DNA of 27,432 nucleotides. Origin: a virus. Position numbers and translations under genes: made by a program. How positions within the stretch are numbered: the first letter of the stretch is position 1; every line of letters starts with the position of its first letter. Shown here piece by piece: positions 4,557 to 24,849 of the stretch. Location: positions 1 to 27,432 of IMG/VR virus record IMGVR_UViG_3300030099_001798. The stretch is one strand, 5' to 3'. Below the pieces are notes generated by a model. It worked only from the letters and a program-made list of their open reading frames with translations. It made no database searches and was not told the DNA's origin.

Positions 4557-4561
4557 AAAAA

Positions 4562-4579
4562 ACCCCGCCGAGGCGGGGT
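4562..4579 (-). terminator. Intrinsic terminator for the leftward operon
   Basis: An 8-bp perfect stem (ACCCCGCC / GGCGGGGT) with a GA loop is flanked on its left by a run of A. Read on the minus strand this is a GC hairpin followed by a U-rich tract, the standard intrinsic terminator for genes transcribed leftward from 9388 to 4601. Read rightward it lacks a T-run, but the stem may still slow transcription leaving the lysis cassette. It marks the convergent junction of the two transcription units. Confidence 0.85.
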
Positions 4580-4600
4580 CAGTTGGGGAGGAATATCACG

Positions 4601-4777
4601 TCAAGGATCGTAACTCTCGGCGACTTCCTCGTCAACTTCGCCTAATCCATTACAGAGATGGCACTCCATCTCTTTCGCTTCGAGCCAGCCGCCGCTCCAT
4701 GCCATTGGTGCGGCGACTGCGACCTCGTACTCGCGGCGCCCTTCTCCGCCGCATGATGGGCAGGTGGCGCTAGTCAT
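4601..4777 (-). CDS. Small zinc-binding protein with two CxxCxG motifs
   Basis: This is a 58-aa product from the ATG at 4777. The frame is open upstream, but that part overlaps the next gene. Two motifs, CPSCGGEG (residues 6-13) and CHLCNGLG, are CxxCxGxG units like those in the DnaJ zinc domain, and together they could bind one zinc ion. The C-terminus is acidic (EVDEEVAESYDP). It overlaps the end of the 77-aa gene by 8 bases and is the last gene of the leftward operon. Zinc binding is well supported; the role is unknown. Confidence 0.65.
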   Translation of the reverse strand: MTSATCPSCGGEGRREYEVAVAAPMAWSGGWLEAKEMECHLCNGLGEVDEEVAESYDP

Positions 4778-5003
4778 AGCTATGCTCGATATCCATCCAC
4801 TTGCGGTACAGGCGATCAACCTGCTTGTTAGCCGCGTCGGCTGAGCGCTGCGCCAGATGCGCTGCCTCATAAAACTCCAGCGCATTCTCGCGGTTATCGA
4901 CCGCAAGGTCCATAAGAACTGCCGAGATATTCTCAAGCTGGTTGGCCTGATCCTTGAGGTAGTTGGCGACCTTGAGCCGGTCATTATTCTTGGTGATTTT
5001 CAT
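4770..5003 (-). CDS. Hypothetical 77-aa helical protein
   Basis: The start is the ATG at 5003, which sits behind the leader CGAAGGGAGACA shared with two other leftward genes; the longer open frame upstream lacks such a signal. The product is almost entirely helical and charged (DRLKVANYLKDQANQLENIS, then NRENALEFYEAAHLAQRSAD). It has no membrane span or cysteine motif. I do not recognise the family. It lies between an OB-fold-like candidate protein and a zinc-binding peptide in the early operon. Confidence 0.6.
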   Translation of the reverse strand: MKITKNNDRLKVANYLKDQANQLENISAVLMDLAVDNRENALEFYEAAHLAQRSADAANKQVDRLYRKWMDIEHSYD

Positions 5004-5007
5004 CGTA

Positions 5008-5022
5008 TGTCTCCCTTCGATG
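5008..5022 (-). repeat. Shared 15-nt translation leader, copy 3
   Basis: The plus-strand sequence TGTCTCCCTTCGATG gives CATCGAAGGGAGACA on the coding strand, upstream of the ATG at 5003. Identical copies precede the genes starting at 8608 and 9388. GGGAGA is the ribosome-binding site. Confidence 0.75.
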
Positions 5023-5038
5023 ATGGTGGGGGGTGGCG

Positions 5039-5635
5039 CTAGGCCACCCACTCTGCTTTTGTCGGGCGCTTGAAGAACCCGAACTTCTCGTCGTCAGCGC
5101 TTTGCGTGACGGTGGCGGTGAATGTAACGCGCTTGCCCGGCATGTCGTCAGCGTGGAACTGGTTGCGACCCTCCTCGTCGTCCCAGCCGAACAACGCGCT
5201 CGGAACCGTACCCCAGAGCTTGAAGCCATCGTCCGACTTGAACAGCATCTTCCAAGTCGTACCGAAAGCGTTCTCGCGCAGGTCGGTTGAGATGACGACG
5301 CCGGTCAGGTCGATGCGGCCCTCGGGGCAGTCGGCAGCGGCAGCGCGCTCTGCCTCGCGCTCGGCAGCGCGCTTCTCGGCGCGCTCGTTGCGATCTGCCA
5401 TAATTTTTCGAACAGCAGCTTCCTGCTTCTCGGTGAGGTGGCCCCACTCGTCAAGCTGCGCGCACATTGCGCCGAGGAAACCGTCGGTGTTGTGCCAAGG
5501 AAAAAGAAAGCCCTCGACCTTGCGGCGGCTCTCGTCCGCAGCGATCCAGCGGTCGTTGCGACCCTTGCTGGCGTTCGCCTTGATGGCGGCGTCACGGCCC
5601 CTTGCCCAAGCGTCGTGATCCATAATTACAGTCAT
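5039..5635 (-). CDS. Early phage protein with C-terminal OB-fold-like region
   Basis: This 198-aa protein has a helical, charged first half (ending in DRNERAEKRAAEREAERAAA). From about residue 106 (CPEGRIDLTGVVISTDLREN) a beta-rich second half follows. That half contains WKMLFKSDDGFKLWGTVPSA and ends in VTFTATVTQ...FGFFKRPTKAEWV. Alternating strands with 'G-x-V-x-S-T' and 'R-V-T-F-T-A-T-V' resemble an OB fold. Related proteins with the FFKRPTKA ending occur in many phages, usually without a known function. A nucleic-acid-binding role is inference. It lies directly downstream of the second leftward promoter; GGGAGA before the ATG at 5635 is the ribosome-binding site. Confidence 0.7.
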   Translation of the reverse strand: MTVIMDHDAWARGRDAAIKANASKGRNDRWIAADESRRKVEGFLFPWHNTDGFLGAMCAQLDEWGHLTEKQEAAVRKIMADRNERAEKRAAEREAERAAAADCPEGRIDLTGVVISTDLRENAFGTTWKMLFKSDDGFKLWGTVPSALFGWDDEEGRNQFHADDMPGKRVTFTATVTQSADDEKFGFFKRPTKAEWVA

Positions 5636-5647
5636 CTCGATCTCCCT

Positions 5648-5700
5648 GTTCTAGAAATGTCCTACTCCAAGAAGATAAGGGGATATTGATCTAATATCAA
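5648..5700 (-). promoter_or_regulatory. Leftward promoter with LexA-box-like operator (copy 2)
   Basis: On the minus strand, TTGATA (5695-5700) and TATCTT (5672-5677) are separated by 17 bases and form a good sigma-70-type promoter. Just downstream lies GTTCTAGAAATGTCCTACT (plus strand, 5648-5666). It contains GTTC-N7-GTCC, one base from the alphaproteobacterial LexA box GTTC-N7-GTTC. Nearly the same 19-mer lies by the leftward promoter at 9408-9426. Binding by host LexA or by the phage LexA-like protein encoded at 5719-5925 is inference. Confidence 0.65.
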
Positions 5701-5708
5701 TACCCCCT
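5678..5708. repeat. Palindromic hairpin/operator overlapping the -35
   Basis: The arms A-GGGG-A-TATTGAT and ATCAATA-C-CCCC-T surround a CTAAT loop, giving 12 pairs with one A/C mismatch. It overlaps the -35 box of the second leftward promoter. Seven T follow on the plus strand, so it could also end rightward transcripts, though no rightward gene lies upstream. A regulator-binding palindrome is the alternative reading. Confidence 0.5.
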
Positions 5709-5718
5709 GATCGTTTTT

Positions 5719-5925
5719 TTACATCATCTCAATCGCGCGGGTTTCGTACCTGCTTCGCTTGATGGCGCCGCGCTTTTCAAGCTGCGTCATCAGATGGTGG
5801 GCCGCTGTTGGGGATCGGCCCGTTGCATCTGCGACCTCTCGCACGCTGGGCGCATACCCATAGCGGCGAACGTGTCTGGATATGTAAGCAAGAACGGAGG
5901 CTTGCTTTTCTGTCAGTGTCACCAT
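5719..5925 (-). CDS. LexA-type winged-helix DNA-binding protein without peptidase domain
   Basis: This 68-aa protein consists only of the LexA N-terminal DNA-binding domain. It begins LTEKQASVLAYISRHVRRYG, as LexA proteins do. Next comes APSVREVADATGRSPTAAHH, with the recognition helix at about residues 38-50, and then the wing (KRGAIKRS). The C-terminal Ser/Lys self-cleaving domain and its hinge are missing, so RecA-stimulated autocleavage is not expected. It is probably a small repressor or a competitor of host LexA. Two GTTC-N7-GTCC boxes lie at leftward promoters, one of them directly downstream of this gene. AGAAAGG upstream of the ATG serves as the ribosome-binding site. Confidence 0.85.
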   Translation of the reverse strand: MVTLTEKQASVLAYISRHVRRYGYAPSVREVADATGRSPTAAHHLMTQLEKRGAIKRSRYETRAIEMM

Positions 5926-5980
5926 GATCTTTAAGTCCTTTCTATTGACAAATATGCCTAATCGAGATTACGGTCCCTGC

Positions 5981-6093
5981 TGGCTTGGACTGTACCTAGT
6001 TTTGTAACGTTAACCTAATCTGCGAGCCGTTTTGTCGGTTGGTTTTTTTGGTGTCGGTGCGAGATTTTGTGGTTTCGACAGCAGTCCAAGCCA
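5981..6093. repeat. 12-bp inverted repeat bracketing 89 nt of non-coding DNA
   Basis: TGGCTTGGACTG (5981-5992) and its exact reverse complement CAGTCCAAGCCA (6082-6093) enclose 89 bases with no gene. They lie in the gap between the YqaJ exonuclease gene and the LexA-like gene (5926-6098). The enclosed DNA has a T7 run and smaller complementary pieces (TGTCG/CGACA on the minus strand). It could fold into a structured leader RNA for the LexA-like gene or hold paired protein-binding sites. I see no tRNA and no clear promoter in the gap. Confidence 0.6.
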
Positions 6094-6098
6094 ACACC

Positions 6099-7055
6099 CT
6101 ACACCTCCTTCACAGTCAGGGTTTTGGCGCGCACCTGCCGGGCAGGCTTAGCCTCAGTGGTCTTGGCTGGCTGCGCCTTGTAGTTACGCATCGGCCACTT
6201 GATGTAGTAAACGGACCCATCGACCTCGATCTGTCCCTCCTCATGGTTGCCGAGCATCTCCTTTAGCATCGTCTCGCACTCGTCGATCTCAGCCTCGGCT
6301 GCACGGCGAGCCTCACGCGCAGCAAGCAGAACGCTCGCCCAGTGGTCCGCGTCAGCTACCTCGTTCAGGTCAACCGCCGGGGCGCCGTCATCGACACGGC
6401 TCCATGCCACGTTCGCATCAGCGCTCGATGCTGCGGGATACCAATCGACATCGCGCTTGCGCCGCTCGAACTCGTGGACCGCATCCTCGATCTGATCCTG
6501 CATGTCCTGATCCTGACGGTACAGAAAGATGCGAAGCTCGGAGCCGCGGTACAGGACGCACACAGCGCCCCAAGCGTAGCCAGTACACATCATCTGCGCC
6601 TGAAGCTGGAGCGGCCCTCTATAGGGCGCAGGAGCCTCCTCAGGGGATGCGCTTGTGTTCTTGGCCTCTAGGCAGCCGGGGCCGCCAGTGTCCACCACGC
6701 CGCCTTGTGGGACATAGATGCCCATCGCCGGGTTGTGCTCGAACACGATGCCGCCACGCCCCCTGCCATCAAGCGAACATGCAAGCGGCAGGTCCGGGTG
6801 GTGGACCGCCTCGGTGATGTCGGTGACCACATCCTGAAGGTCGAGGCGATAGGCCGCCTCGGCGAGGATCACCGGCTCCAGCAGATCGCCGAAGCGCATG
6901 GCCTCGTTCTGTGTGAGCCGCTCGGGCGGCTTACCAGCCGCAGCCTCAATAGCCTCCTTCAGCAACTCGTTCGGGGTCATGTAGGGCGACAGGCCCATCA
7001 GGACCGGAACGCGGGATGCGGTGACGATATCGTCGGGTGTGAGTTTACCTACCAT
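6099..7055 (-). CDS. YqaJ-type recombination exonuclease (lambda Exo family)
   Basis: This 318-aa PDDEXK nuclease probably degrades one strand of double-stranded DNA ends during phage recombination. It begins with the family motif SRVPVLMGLSPYMTPNELL (residues 14-32). RFGDLLEPVI (54-63) contributes Glu60. SLDG holds catalytic Asp96, and LEAKN holds Glu130 and Lys132. PYRGPLQLQAQM (144-155) is the conserved Gln-rich helix. The C-terminal region has a helical insert and a basic tail. I chose the ATG at 7055 because AGGAG lies about 8 bases upstream; the frame also offers an ATG at 7070. It overlaps the preceding gene by 11 bases. A partner single-strand annealing protein is not obvious nearby. 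Confidence 0.88.
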   Translation of the reverse strand: MVGKLTPDDIVTASRVPVLMGLSPYMTPNELLKEAIEAAAGKPPERLTQNEAMRFGDLLEPVILAEAAYRLDLQDVVTDITEAVHHPDLPLACSLDGRGRGGIVFEHNPAMGIYVPQGGVVDTGGPGCLEAKNTSASPEEAPAPYRGPLQLQAQMMCTGYAWGAVCVLYRGSELRIFLYRQDQDMQDQIEDAVHEFERRKRDVDWYPAASSADANVAWSRVDDGAPAVDLNEVADADHWASVLLAAREARRAAEAEIDECETMLKEMLGNHEEGQIEVDGSVYYIKWPMRNYKAQPAKTTEAKPARQVRAKTLTVKEV

Positions 7056-7689
7056 TTTTCTGCTCCTCATATTTGGTGCGTTCGTGACTGCGGATCATGT
7101 CCCGCGTGATCTTCCGGCCCGACCAATCGCGTGGCCGGGTTTTCTCAAATTTGACCTCCCTGCCAAGAAGCCTGACGGCTTCGTCTCCATTGAGGCCGGT
7201 CTGCTCGGTGACGAGGCGAAGCTCCTTTGCAAGGCGAGCGGCGCTGCCGAAAAACTTAGCCATCTCCATCATGGTGGGCTGTTCTTCACGCATCATCTGT
7301 CTAAGGCTCTCGCGCTCACGCTGCTGCGCGACAGACGGCGATAGGGGGATATCAGTGTAAATCTCCCCCGGCACAAGCCAGCACTGCCCGGTTGGGGCGT
7401 AGCAGTTTTGCCCTGTCCTCCAGAAAGACTTCCCAGCGTACCCTTCGTGATCGTGGTTCACGACAAGGCGCTTTCGTGCTGTGATGGTCTCTATGGTGGT
7501 GACATGCGGCTTCATCATCTTCCCTGCCCAAGTGTGCAACACGACAACGGTGTCGCCTGCGGATGGAGGGTTTGCCTCATAATGTTCTTTCGTGCGAGGC
7601 ATGTCGTGATGCTTGTGGCGCATCTCATAGTGCCAGTTCAGCCAATCATCATCGGGTCGCAGGCCCGGCACGATATCAAGTCTCAGCAT
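7045..7689 (-). CDS. Hypothetical 214-aa early protein
   Basis: The product is soluble. Its N-terminal half is rich in His, Trp and Tyr (DDDWLNWHYEMRHKHHDMPR, then SAGDTVVVLHTWAGKMMKPH). Beta strands follow around the YAGKSFWRTGQNCYAPTGQC segment. The C-terminal ~85 residues are helical and charged, ending in RDMIRSHERTKYEEQKNGR. No known catalytic motif is visible. The start ATG at 7689 is preceded by AGAAAGGGGGA, a good ribosome-binding site. It ends inside the YqaJ exonuclease gene, so the two are translationally coupled, and a link to recombination is possible but unproven. Confidence 0.65.
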   Translation of the reverse strand: MLRLDIVPGLRPDDDWLNWHYEMRHKHHDMPRTKEHYEANPPSAGDTVVVLHTWAGKMMKPHVTTIETITARKRLVVNHDHEGYAGKSFWRTGQNCYAPTGQCWLVPGEIYTDIPLSPSVAQQRERESLRQMMREEQPTMMEMAKFFGSAARLAKELRLVTEQTGLNGDEAVRLLGREVKFEKTRPRDWSGRKITRDMIRSHERTKYEEQKNGR

Positions 7690-7703
7690 CTTAATCCCCC
7701 TTT

Positions 7704-7847
7704 CTATTTACCGAAGTGGACAATGAGCGCCCACCATGTGTAGGACCGAGAACTCTCAATCCCAAAAATCCAAAGCCAGTCAATCCAGCCAAGGGTGAAA
7801 AACAGCAGGATAATCCCGCCGATGATGTCGTCTAGATATTGTCTCAT
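7704..7847 (-). CDS. 47-aa Trp-rich membrane protein
   Basis: The ATG at 7847 is preceded by a strong GGAGGAG ribosome-binding site, and the frame ends in TAG at 7704-7706. After a charged start (MRQYLDDI) comes a hydrophobic segment, IIGGIILLFFTLGWIDW (residues 8-24). A second hydrophobic, Trp-rich stretch contains WLWIFG and later TWWALIVHFGK. The product is short enough to be missed by length filters. It fits exactly between two neighbours of the leftward operon, with no overlap and short gaps. An early-expressed membrane peptide of a phage could act on the host membrane, for example in superinfection exclusion; that role is inference only. Confidence 0.65.
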   Translation of the reverse strand: MRQYLDDIIGGIILLFFTLGWIDWLWIFGIESSRSYTWWALIVHFGK

Positions 7848-7850
7848 GGC

Positions 7851-8255
7851 TCACTCCTCCGATGCTGGGTCGTAGTATCCGTCCCGGCCATTAGCCGGGA
7901 AGATGAAGCCCTTCCGGCGATACCAAGACTTCAGTTCGCGCTGGGCCATGCCATTCGCATACGGGTAGCAGCTTTGCGTCTCACAATGAATGTGCAGCAG
8001 GATGCCGTGCTCATGGCAAAGGTCAAGCAGCCAGCGCAGGCAGCGCCCACCATTGCCCTCTTTGCGTTCCAGCGATTGAATGAAGCCCAGTGTCATCTGC
8101 CCATCTCTGAAGCCGTCAGTCAGTTCGAGGCAACAGTTATGCTCCGGCACATAGACAAGGTGCCGGTTGTATGGGTGCGGCTGGGTGGCAGCAAGCACGG
8201 CCTCGGTGAAGGCCGTGTTCTGTGAATGGCGCGCAAGGCGATCAAAGTTCAGCAT
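7851..8255 (-). CDS. GNAT-fold acetyltransferase-like protein
   Basis: This 134-aa product starts at the ATG at 8255, which overlaps the preceding TGA; the frame is open further upstream only as a shadow of the neighbouring gene. The order of elements fits a GNAT fold. A beta strand with MTLGFIQSLER precedes EGNGGRCLRWLLDLC, which resembles the acetyl-CoA pyrophosphate loop R/Q-x-x-G-x-G/A (residues 65-70) and its helix. Next is the strand GILLHIHCE. LKSWYRRKGF (residues 109-118) is the typical GNAT 'WY-x-R-x-GF' element. Phage GNAT proteins can modify proteins, nucleotides or DNA (Mu Mom has a GNAT-like fold). The substrate here is unknown. Confidence 0.62.
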   Translation of the reverse strand: MLNFDRLARHSQNTAFTEAVLAATQPHPYNRHLVYVPEHNCCLELTDGFRDGQMTLGFIQSLERKEGNGGRCLRWLLDLCHEHGILLHIHCETQSCYPYANGMAQRELKSWYRRKGFIFPANGRDGYYDPASEE

Positions 8256-8608
8256 CACGCAGCACTTTCGTAGCGGTCGTGGATGGCGACCGGGCCAGCG
8301 CAGTCCGCGCCGGTGATCTCTTTGACGGCGCGGCTGAACCGGCTGTCGCTGGTGTAGGCGAAGTTGCCGCCAAACATGCGGTTGCCGGTCGCCCACCGAA
8401 GCCATTTGCCACACGCCGGGACGATGCGGACAGAACCAAGCGGACCGGCTTCCAGCCGAGCAGCAGGCCGACGTTCGTCTGGCGTGAAAGGACCGTCCAC
8501 GTTAATCAGACAAAGCTGATCGACGCCGTCACGAGAGTTGGTCATTCCGTTGTTGGTGCAATCGTGGCGGCCGGTATCGGCGCGATAAACTGAAACAATC
8601 ATTCCCAT
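8255..8608 (-). CDS. Hypothetical 117-aa early protein
   Basis: The ATG at 8608 follows the shared GAAGGGAGACA leader. The N-terminus has a strand (MIVSVYRADTGRHDC). Later features are a CLINVDGPFTPDERRPAARL segment and a C-terminal SRFSRAVKEITGADCAGPVA stretch. Four cysteines are scattered without a clear CxxC pair. No family is recognised. It overlaps the GNAT-like gene at the TGATG junction, so the two are probably translated together. Confidence 0.6.
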   Translation of the reverse strand: MGMIVSVYRADTGRHDCTNNGMTNSRDGVDQLCLINVDGPFTPDERRPAARLEAGPLGSVRIVPACGKWLRWATGNRMFGGNFAYTSDSRFSRAVKEITGADCAGPVAIHDRYESAA

Positions 8609-8613
8609 TAGTC

Positions 8614-8628
8614 TGTCTCCCTTCGATG
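8614..8628 (-). repeat. Shared 15-nt translation leader, copy 2
   Basis: An exact copy of the leader seen at 5008-5022 and 9392-9406 lies upstream of the ATG at 8608. Copies 2 and 3 also share a TGGTGGGG extension on the plus strand. Confidence 0.75.
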
Positions 8629-8662
8629 GTGGTGGGGGCGGGGCCGAAGCCCCGCCGGTGGA

Positions 8663-9388
8663 TTAGATGATCGGCATCAGGTCGGTCTGCTGCCAGCCTT
8701 CGAGGCGCTTCTTCTGCTCTTCGATGGCGCGCTCGGTCTGCATGATCAGGCCAGCGCGGCGGAACCTCTTGCCGCTCCAGTGTTTGTAGACCGGATCGTC
8801 GCTTTGACGAAGCTGATCAAGCTGCTGCTCAAGCTGATCTATATGGCGCCCAAGCAGAACGCAATCGACCTCGAACGGAAGGCGGCCACTGCCGTCGCAC
8901 TCGCCCTCAAACCAGCCGAACGAGTGGCCATTACGCGCGTGACGGTAGCCGTGCTTGGCGATGCGGCCAGTGCGCTTGCTGACCTTGTGCGCCGCGCCGC
9001 AAATCTGGCAGGTGCCACGATGGGTGGCTTGGTTGCCGGTCGGCTGAGCCGCAACCTTCGGCTTCGAGGTCGGCTTGATCACCGGCATCGCCTTGACCTT
9101 GTCAAGCTGATCGGCAAGGAACCGGACGCGGTCGGCGTCCTCGAAGCCAATGGCGACCGTCAGGATCGGGGTGTGCTTCGAGCGGATTTGATGAAGGTCA
9201 AGCGGCACGTCCCAGAAGCTCAGGCCATTGGCCTCAAGCGCGGCATAGTTGAGGTCGGCGCGCAGGACGCCGTAAGCGCGGTTGAGATACTGACGCGCAT
9301 CCTTGGCGGCCGCCTTGGTCGGGAAGCTGCCCTCAATGCAAAGGTCGAAGGCTGCTTGAACGTAGTGGGCGTAAGTCTTGGCGGTCAT
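8663..9388 (-). CDS. First gene of the leftward operon; zinc-finger-bearing hypothetical protein
   Basis: This 241-aa product starts at the ATG at 9388, directly behind the shared CGAAGGGAGACA leader. The N-terminal ~80 residues are helical and beta mixed (TYAHYVQAAFDLCIEGSFPT). A Lys/Pro linker follows. Then comes a zinc-type region, CQICGAAHKVSKRTGRIAKH, followed by GYRHARNGHSF and GECDGSGRLPFE; Cys and His residues there could form one zinc site. This Cys-x2-Cys...His-Gly-Tyr...Cys-x-Gly pattern occurs in uncharacterised phage and plasmid proteins. The C-terminus is a coiled coil (HIDQLEQQLDQLRQSDDPVY, later ERAIEEQKKRLEGW). Being first in the operon suggests early, strong expression. Confidence 0.7.
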   Translation of the reverse strand: MTAKTYAHYVQAAFDLCIEGSFPTKAAAKDARQYLNRAYGVLRADLNYAALEANGLSFWDVPLDLHQIRSKHTPILTVAIGFEDADRVRFLADQLDKVKAMPVIKPTSKPKVAAQPTGNQATHRGTCQICGAAHKVSKRTGRIAKHGYRHARNGHSFGWFEGECDGSGRLPFEVDCVLLGRHIDQLEQQLDQLRQSDDPVYKHWSGKRFRRAGLIMQTERAIEEQKKRLEGWQQTDLMPII

Positions 9389-9391
9389 CGA

Positions 9392-9406
9392 TGTCTCCCT
9401 TCGATG
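9392..9406 (-). repeat. Shared 15-nt translation leader, copy 1
   Basis: TGTCTCCCTTCGATG on the plus strand is identical to the copies at 8614-8628 and 5008-5022. It supplies the GGGAGA ribosome-binding site for the ATG at 9388. Confidence 0.75.
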
Positions 9407-9407
9407 T

Positions 9408-9454
9408 GTTCTAGTCATGTCCTACTAGGATAATCAATATTACTGTGATATCAA
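9408..9454 (-). promoter_or_regulatory. Leftward promoter with LexA-box-like operator (copy 1)
   Basis: On the minus strand, TTGATA (9449-9454) and TATCCT (9427-9432) are separated by 16 bases. Directly downstream is GTTCTAGTCATGTCCTACT (plus, 9408-9426), which matches the box at 5648-5666 at 17 of 19 positions. It contains GTTC-N7-GTCC, close to the alphaproteobacterial LexA box. CTAGT/ACTAG arms also make it partly palindromic. It should drive the long leftward operon. Confidence 0.68.
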
Positions 9455-9468
9455 GGTCTGAATAGCAT
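9440..9468 (+). promoter_or_regulatory. Candidate rightward promoter of the divergent region
   Basis: TTACTG (9440-9445) and TAGCAT (9463-9468) are 17 bases apart and point to the gene at 9497. The -35 region lies next to, and partly within, the leftward promoter, so one regulator could control both. The -10 matches the consensus only partly. A T9 run and GGAGG follow before the GTG start. Confidence 0.4.
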
Positions 9469-9496
9469 TTTGCTAAATTTTTTTTTGGAGGCCCAA

Positions 9497-23611: not shown

Positions 23612-23946
23612 ATGACGACTTTTGCTACCGGCGCCGCCATTGGTGAGCGCGAACAGCTGGCAGATGTGATTTACCGCATCGACCCTGCTGAAACACCGAT
23701 CTTCTCGAACGTGAAGAAGGAAACCTCGAACGGTATCTTTACCGAATGGCAAGTTCAGGAACTGGCATCTGCCGCGACCGACAACTACCACAACGAAGGT
23801 GCCGACACCGCCACAGCGGCGGCAACGCCGACCTCTAGGATCGGTAACTACCACCAGATTTCCAAGAAGGTCTTCGCGACCTCCGGCACTCTGGATGCGG
23901 TAGATACCGCAGGCCGTGAGCGGGAACACAACTATCAGAAGGTGCT
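23612..23946 (+). CDS. Major capsid protein, exon 1 (SU10-type)
   Basis: This exon encodes residues 1-111 and the first two bases of codon 112 (Leu) of the major capsid protein. The N-terminus matches the SU10 major capsid family (formerly DUF5309): REQLADVIYRIDPAETPIFS, then VKKETSNGIFTEWQVQELAS and NYHQISKKVFATSGTLDAVD. The last exon bases, GGTGCT, pair with GGCACC inside the intron and give a U-G pair at the cut. Reading on without splicing adds 16 intron-coded residues and stops at a TGA (23993-23995), leaving a useless 127-aa protein. The ribosome-binding site is AAAGGAAAAAG. It is joined to exon 2 at 24234. Confidence 0.9.
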
Positions 23947-24233
23947 TAACTCTTTCTCCGAAGGCACCCCTGTTCTAAATCAGATTGCTGTCTGACTGGT
24001 TCAGGAAAAAAATTGGGTGAATTGCTGGGAAGCCCGGAGGCGGGTAATCAGCAGCCAAGCGCCAGATGGAAGCGAAAGCTGAGGGCTGGTGAAGGTTCAA
24101 CGACTAGGCGGTGACGAAAGAATAATCTGCCCACGAGCGCCCAACACGAAAGTGAAGATATAGTCTGAACTACGGTATAACCTGACCAGAAGCCGTAGAA
24201 GTCGATCATAAACAGGTCGGCGGTAACAAATTG
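23947..24233 (+). ncRNA. Group I self-splicing intron in the major capsid gene
   Basis: A complete group I core is visible. P1 is GGTGCT (23941-23946) with GGCACC (23963-23968), with U-G at the splice site. P2 has outer CCTG/CAGG and inner TCAGA/TCTGA stems. P3 is TTGGGTG (24013-24019) with CGCCCAA (24138-24144). P4 is TGCTG/CAGCA. P5 is GCCCG/CGGGT. P6 is CGCCAG/CTGGTG with a GAAA-capped P6a. R element GTTCAACGACTA (24095-24106) and S element AAGATATAGTC (24155-24165) form P7. P8 is CAC-GAAA-GTG and P9 is CTACGG/CCGTAG. An extra hairpin between P7 and P3 (GGCGG/CTGCC) suggests subgroup IA. The terminal G is 24233. It carries no endonuclease ORF. I see no convincing P10. Confidence 0.92.
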
Positions 24234-24849
24234 TAAGGCCCTTGAGTTACGTCGCGACATCGAAAAGATGGTCGGTGACACTGATGTTGCTCGTTCCGCG
24301 TCTGAGCCTCGCAAGTCGGCTTCGCTGTCTTGCTGGATCACTAACGGCTCTGTTGGTGGCGGCTCCGGCGCTTTCGCTACTGGCGATGGCACCGACGCAG
24401 TAACCGGCGGCACCGACCGCGCACTGACGCTCGCCCTCATTGAGGACGCGCAGCAGGACGCATGGGCCGACGGCGGCAACCCTCGTCTAATGCTTATGAG
24501 TGCCACGAACAAAGCCAATTTTTCCGATTTGGCTGCGTCGGGCAACCTCGTCAGCAATGACGTGAACATGACCGCTGCCAAGGAAGTGACCTATGTGGGG
24601 TCCACTAGCGTATTCCTCGGCGACTTCGGTACTGTTGAGGCGACCCCGTCTCGCCAGCTTGGTAACGACCGCATCTTCTTGGTTGACCCGGACTTCGTGT
24701 CGATCTGCACGCTGAACGGTCGTAACTTCCTTGAGGAAGACCTCGCCAAGGTCGGCGATGCGACGGAAAGCCATATCGTGATCGAGTGGGCATTAAAGCC
24801 GACTGCGCCAAAAGCACATAGCATGATTCTCGATCTTAATGGTTCGTAA
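24234..24849 (+). CDS. Major capsid protein, exon 2 (SU10-type)
   Basis: This exon completes codon 112 (CT + T = Leu) and codes for residues 113-316, ending in TAA. Joined to exon 1 it reads YQKVLKALELRRDIEKMVGD across the junction, the conserved 'K-x-L-x-x-R-x-D-I-E' stretch of SU10-type capsids. Later features are a Gly/Ser-rich loop (GSVGGGSGAFATGDG), the helix ALTLALIEDAQQDAWADGGN and the C-terminal VIEWALKPTAPKAHSMILDL. The internal ATG at 24268 could be mistaken for the start of a separate gene, but the frame is homologous from 24234 onward. A strong hairpin terminator follows. Confidence 0.9.

Follow-up and report, generated by a model that had tools for sequence, protein, structure and literature searches.

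What reads two nearly identical boxes at the starts of the leftward genes of a marine phage, and to what effect? The question arises in a 27,432-nucleotide stretch of viral DNA (the window) from a 28,194-bp IMG/VR record. The boxes, GTTCTAGAAATGTCCTACT (5648–5666) and GTTCTAGTCATGTCCTACT (9408–9426), are exactly where a preliminary description had placed them and share 17 of 19 bases. No further match with three or fewer mismatches was found elsewhere in the window, no further box was present in the rest of the record, and none of 100 shuffled sequences yielded two boxes. The same description had put a leftward TTGATA/TATCYT promoter just before each box; a consensus scan of the region, which returned 5 promoter-like sites against 1.7 expected, recovered both (P1 and P2; Table 1). 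Each box directly follows the −10 element of its sigma-70-like promoter and covers the predicted start site. On the minus strand, which is the one transcribed, each box shows TAGGAC-N5-TAGAAC, two half-sites repeated directly with an 11-bp period, a spacing that puts both on one face of the DNA. Self-identity of the boxes, those of relatives included, is 0.85 at offset 11 versus 0.13–0.30 at offsets 3–10, 12 and 13. The earlier reading of the boxes as GTTC-N7-GTCC captured their LexA-box-like layout but missed the conserved TA before each GRAC.

Table 1 Features of the leftward region, in window coordinates
Feature	Position	Strand	Details and basis
Promoter P1, TTGATA-16-TATCCT	9427–9454	−	Consensus scan; TATACT in several relatives
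Operator O1 (predicted), AGTAGGACATGACTAGAAC	9408–9426	−	Half-sites TAGGAC 9424–9419, TAGAAC 9413–9408
Leftward unit 1, behind P1/O1	5719–9385	−	ORFs; single transcript inferred
Unit 1 genes	8663–9385, 8255–8608, 7851–8255, 7045–7689, 6099–7070, 5719–5925	−	ORFs; LexA-like gene last
Proposed repressor, a 68-aa winged-helix DNA-binding protein of LexA type that lacks an S24 domain	5719–5925	−	PF01726 profile, predicted fold
Hairpin resembling unit 1 terminator, overlaps P2	5678–5708	−	−21.4 kcal/mol, z −4.4
Promoter P2, TTGATA-17-TATCTT	5672–5700	−	Consensus scan; conserved in relatives
Operator O2 (predicted), AGTAGGACATTTCTAGAAC	5648–5666	−	Half-sites TAGGAC 5664–5659, TAGAAC 5653–5648
Leftward unit 2, behind P2/O2	4601–5635	−	ORFs 5039–5635, 4770–5003, 4601–4777

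The leftward genes are presumably early, judging from their position and from a recombination function, a YqaJ/RecE-like exonuclease (6099–7070; PF09588, phrog_434). The LexA-like gene stands at the end of unit 1, immediately before P2/O2. The hairpin at this junction holds the P2 −35 element in its left arm, with the T-rich −10 immediately after it; it is conserved, with two of its base pairs preserved by compensatory changes in relatives, and is likely to be the terminator of unit 1. Unit 2 ends at a terminator-like site (4561–4580). In some relatives (for example, L083 and L082) another gene comes straight after the helix–turn–helix (HTH) gene; a second promoter is missing there and O1 is the sole box found, so the constant feature of the arrangement seems to be control of the operon that carries the HTH gene. 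Three further elements were seen in this region. A 15-bp inverted repeat (93%; 5978–5992 and 6082–6096) flanks the gap between the exonuclease and LexA-like genes and folds as RNA into a long stem (z −3.7). Upstream of the P1 −35 lies a palindrome, TAGCAAAATGCTA (9461–9473), with both arms changed in relatives (for example, TCGCCAGATGCGA), which is perhaps another operator or a weak terminator. A Shine–Dalgarno leader (minus strand CATCGAAGGGAGACAT) recurs in identical or near-identical form ahead of three leftward genes, at 5007–5022, 8613–8628 and 9391–9406.

The preliminary description had also reported a LexA DNA-binding domain without a self-cleaving domain at 5719–5925, and this holds. 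The protein matches the LexA_DNA_bind family (PF01726) at 57.5 bits, above the curated cut-off of 23.7, and its residues 1–64 align with profile positions 1–65, that is, nearly the entire 68-aa protein. A structure model built without an alignment predicts three helices (pLDDT 81) that match the LexA DNA-binding domains 3k2z and 3jso; the weak wing was left uninterpreted. The protein stops after the winged helix and has no C-terminal S24 self-cleaving and dimerisation domain of the kind found in LexA repressors. Judged from its sequence, this phage mini-LexA has retained the LexA-type winged helix but not the domain for self-cleavage and dimerisation. Its recognition helix reads SxTAAH, compared with SKSGIH in alphaproteobacterial LexA.

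IMG/VR scans that used the exonuclease, the HTH and the products of adjacent genes as queries retrieved more than 50 related contigs of marine phages, in which the boxes recur at the starts of leftward units, several of them as cleaner repeats than in the window (for example, TAGAACATTAGTAGGAC). By recognition helix, the HTH proteins fall into class A (SxTAA; the window and most relatives), class B (SHGAA) and class C (TVGAA). Among 59 distinct HTH-bearing contigs, the 45 with a scorable box entered a comparison of box type with class. Class A occurs with TAG[AGT]AC (TAGRAC-type) boxes in 34 contigs, class B with GTAGAC-type boxes in 7 and class C with GTAAAC/TTRAAC-type boxes in 4; the agreement is 45 of 45, with zero exceptions, for class patterns set after inspection of the data. 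Even HTHs merely 52–54% identical to that of the window (L074 and L075) retain both the SxTAA motif and the TAGRAC half-sites. Residues that distinguish the classes align with S39, N41 and E45 of Escherichia coli LexA, which are listed among its DNA-contacting residues (PMC3091678).

The box follows the HTH rather than its surroundings. O1 and O2 lie about 2.5–4 kb apart with the exonuclease between them, and are of the same type wherever both are seen. The O1 regions of a class B and a class C phage (L023 and L084) are near-identical, yet the half-site is GTAGACA in one and GTAAACA in the other. Downstream genes are shuffled among the phages, and one gene family (such as the relatives of 5039–5635) sits behind boxes of type A, B, C or D, depending on which HTH its phage encodes; box type tracks the HTH, not the gene behind the box. 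In relatives with a variant promoter (TTTACA or TTGTAC), the −10 is ambiguous. In the exonuclease tree, class B forms one clade, class C another, and the two together a third (94/92), the joining being seen in a tree without most of three long rows. An earlier tree that included those rows had split B from C, and the two separate swaps that it implied were dropped. With B and C each forming a single clade, probably sister to the other, the 45 matches reduce to about two concerted changes rather than as many independent ones, and an independent-pairs count gives only one event. The conservation of the boxes supports their behaving as real operators, and the covariation indicates that the phage protein, not host LexA, reads them.

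The nearest relative, G001 (the contig of L004; 34,771 bp), matches the window at 92–95% identity along most of its length, has a 141-bp terminal direct repeat and is likely a complete genome. It carries exactly two boxes, at the corresponding places, with zero control matches. No tyrosine integrase or serine recombinase (resolvase) was found in four records including this one, and no S24 peptidase domain in G000, G001, G011 or G012; the integrase plus S24-type repressor of a CI-type lysogeny system was thus found in none of four records, one of them with terminal repeats. Compared with sequenced phages, the DNA of the leftward region shares only 77 bp, with Roseobacter phages CRP-821/822. The nearest phage by terminase, C72C1 (75%), has no HTH match, and the phage collection searched held no close cultured relative. 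As a separate observation, a group I intron (RF00028, 60.2 bits, E = 1.7 × 10−14; 23971–24185, plus strand) splits the major capsid gene of the window (23612–23995 and 24268–24849), with no homing endonuclease seen in the insert. G001 has an intact 316-aa capsid ORF, unlike the window, and the split capsid gene of C72C1 also gives an intron match (81.8 bits).

Host LexA could read the boxes instead, repressing both leftward promoters and thereby linking the phage early genes to cellular SOS status, a tie that the preliminary description had proposed. GIL01 uses host LexA in such a manner, LexA boxes of alphaproteobacteria are direct repeats too, on the same strand, and A-type boxes keep 6–8 of the 8 bases of GAAC-N7-GAAC (7 of 8 in both window boxes; all of them in L021, whose box, TAGAACGTTAGTAGAAC, is also a cleaner repeat). 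We compared the boxes with bacterial loci. Exonuclease relatives were absent from the bacterial and archaeal genome collection, and an HTH profile gave one weak match there, in a Variovorax record. Among 299 genomes sampled across the phylum of that record, 81 gave an alphaproteobacterial-type LexA; the LexA probe served purely as bait, and the conclusions rest on the genome loci retrieved. A perfect GAAC-N7-GAAC direct repeat precedes lexA in all 24 loci with upstream sequence (25 were read), compared with 1 of 17 distinct phage boxes, the other 16 deviating, although the 11-bp period is common to both. B-type boxes keep only 4 of the 8 LexA-box bases, so host LexA is unlikely to be the main reader, and the boxes change with the phage recognition helix. 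In addition, no integrase was found, hence no sign of an inducible lysogen. Control by host LexA is therefore improbable, and on sequence grounds host LexA is unlikely to be what maintains the boxes, although it could cross-bind the A type. The other role suggested beforehand for the phage protein, silencing host SOS genes, finds no support: the phage-type operator is absent from the 25 alphaproteobacterial lexA loci (78 kb), a weak test because these loci need not be those of the host.

The overlap of host and phage consensus in class A would also suit successive readers, host LexA first and the phage protein later, so that the start would be SOS-sensitive and the shut-off SOS-blind. That overlap is not conserved in classes B and C, and we give such a dual reading little credence. 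There is a similarly slim chance of its corollary, in which a phage without a detectable integrase would sense host DNA damage at entry and then override it, the GTAGAC/GTAAAC shift in the sister phages being an escape from host LexA. That the phage protein activates from the boxes is very unlikely: GIL01 gp6, also a bare LexA DNA-binding domain, does activate a phage promoter, but from an upstream site centred at −43.5, whereas the boxes here come right after the −10, over the predicted start, where binding normally blocks. Least credible, and highly improbable, is a 5′ leader RNA element acting on stability or translation rather than a protein site on DNA. The boxes do fall within or close to the predicted 5′ leader, immediately ahead of the Shine–Dalgarno sequence, and folding of the O1 leader is somewhat stronger than that of shuffled sequences (z −2.1). 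The O2 leader shows no such advantage (z +1.1), the 11-bp period fits the helical phasing of DNA, and the covarying partner is a DNA-binding helix.

We consider it probable that mini-LexA is an autorepressor, non-cleavable and independent of SOS, that lowers expression of the leftward operons, including its own gene. From the computed boxes, promoter-like sites, family and fold, conservation, box–helix association and absence of integrase and S24 domains, we infer binding, repression, monomer cooperativity and timing as follows. Mini-LexA would bind both boxes, each made up of two 6-bp TAGRAC half-sites head-to-tail 11 bp apart. At both P1 and P2 the predicted start site lies under the box, so occupancy of the boxes would block transcription. 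With its gene last in unit 1, the protein would accumulate only after the operon has been read, and would then turn down unit 1 (itself included) and unit 2, as a shut-off of early genes or a delayed negative feedback, the latter being the simplest reading for the leftward genes. As mini-LexA has no cleavage domain, no SOS response is expected. A weak point of the model is its demand that a winged helix lacking any dimerisation domain bind half-sites of 6 bp with sufficient affinity.

Several known proteins resemble mini-LexA in part. In the temperate Bacillus tectivirus GIL01, gp6 is a bare LexA DNA-binding domain that activates a late promoter from a palindrome (PMC6182141). Both phages encode the LexA DNA-binding domain alone, and a dedicated site is indicated here by covariation. 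The gp6 site is a palindrome overlapping the −35, whereas the boxes here are direct repeats right after the −10, over the predicted start sites; no integrase was detectable and repression is predicted. That gp6, the characterised example of this kind, activates transcription counts by analogy against a repressor. Alphaproteobacterial LexA shares the winged helix and a head-to-tail repeat with an 11-bp period ahead of the regulated gene; mini-LexA differs in lacking S24 and in its half-site, TAGRAC (or GTAGAC, GTAAAC/TTRAAC) in place of strict GAAC. The 7-kDa winged-helix-like phage protein T7 Gp5.7, likened here by description only, represses host-polymerase promoters on the phage genome and also interacts with RNA polymerase (PMC5569994); a defined repeat operator is predicted here. 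BldC, a MerR-like Streptomyces developmental regulator, is likewise a bare DNA-binding protein of 68 residues that lacks a dimerisation domain and binds direct repeats head-to-tail (PMC5859096), but it belongs to another family. The LexA-like proteins of PHROG 362 and coliphages mEp460 and SfII match LexA DNA-binding domains and are 36.8% identical to mini-LexA; these coliphages are temperate and the gene neighbourhood is different. None of gp6, Gp5.7 and BldC combines the features seen here.

Taken together, these findings predict a regulatory circuit for this group of marine phages and point, after GIL01 gp6, to a second way in which phages may use a bare LexA domain. The group also provides naturally varied LexA-type recognition helices, each paired with its own kind of operator (TAGRAC, GTAGAC and GTAAAC/TTRAAC), a code of site changes that is testable by swaps.
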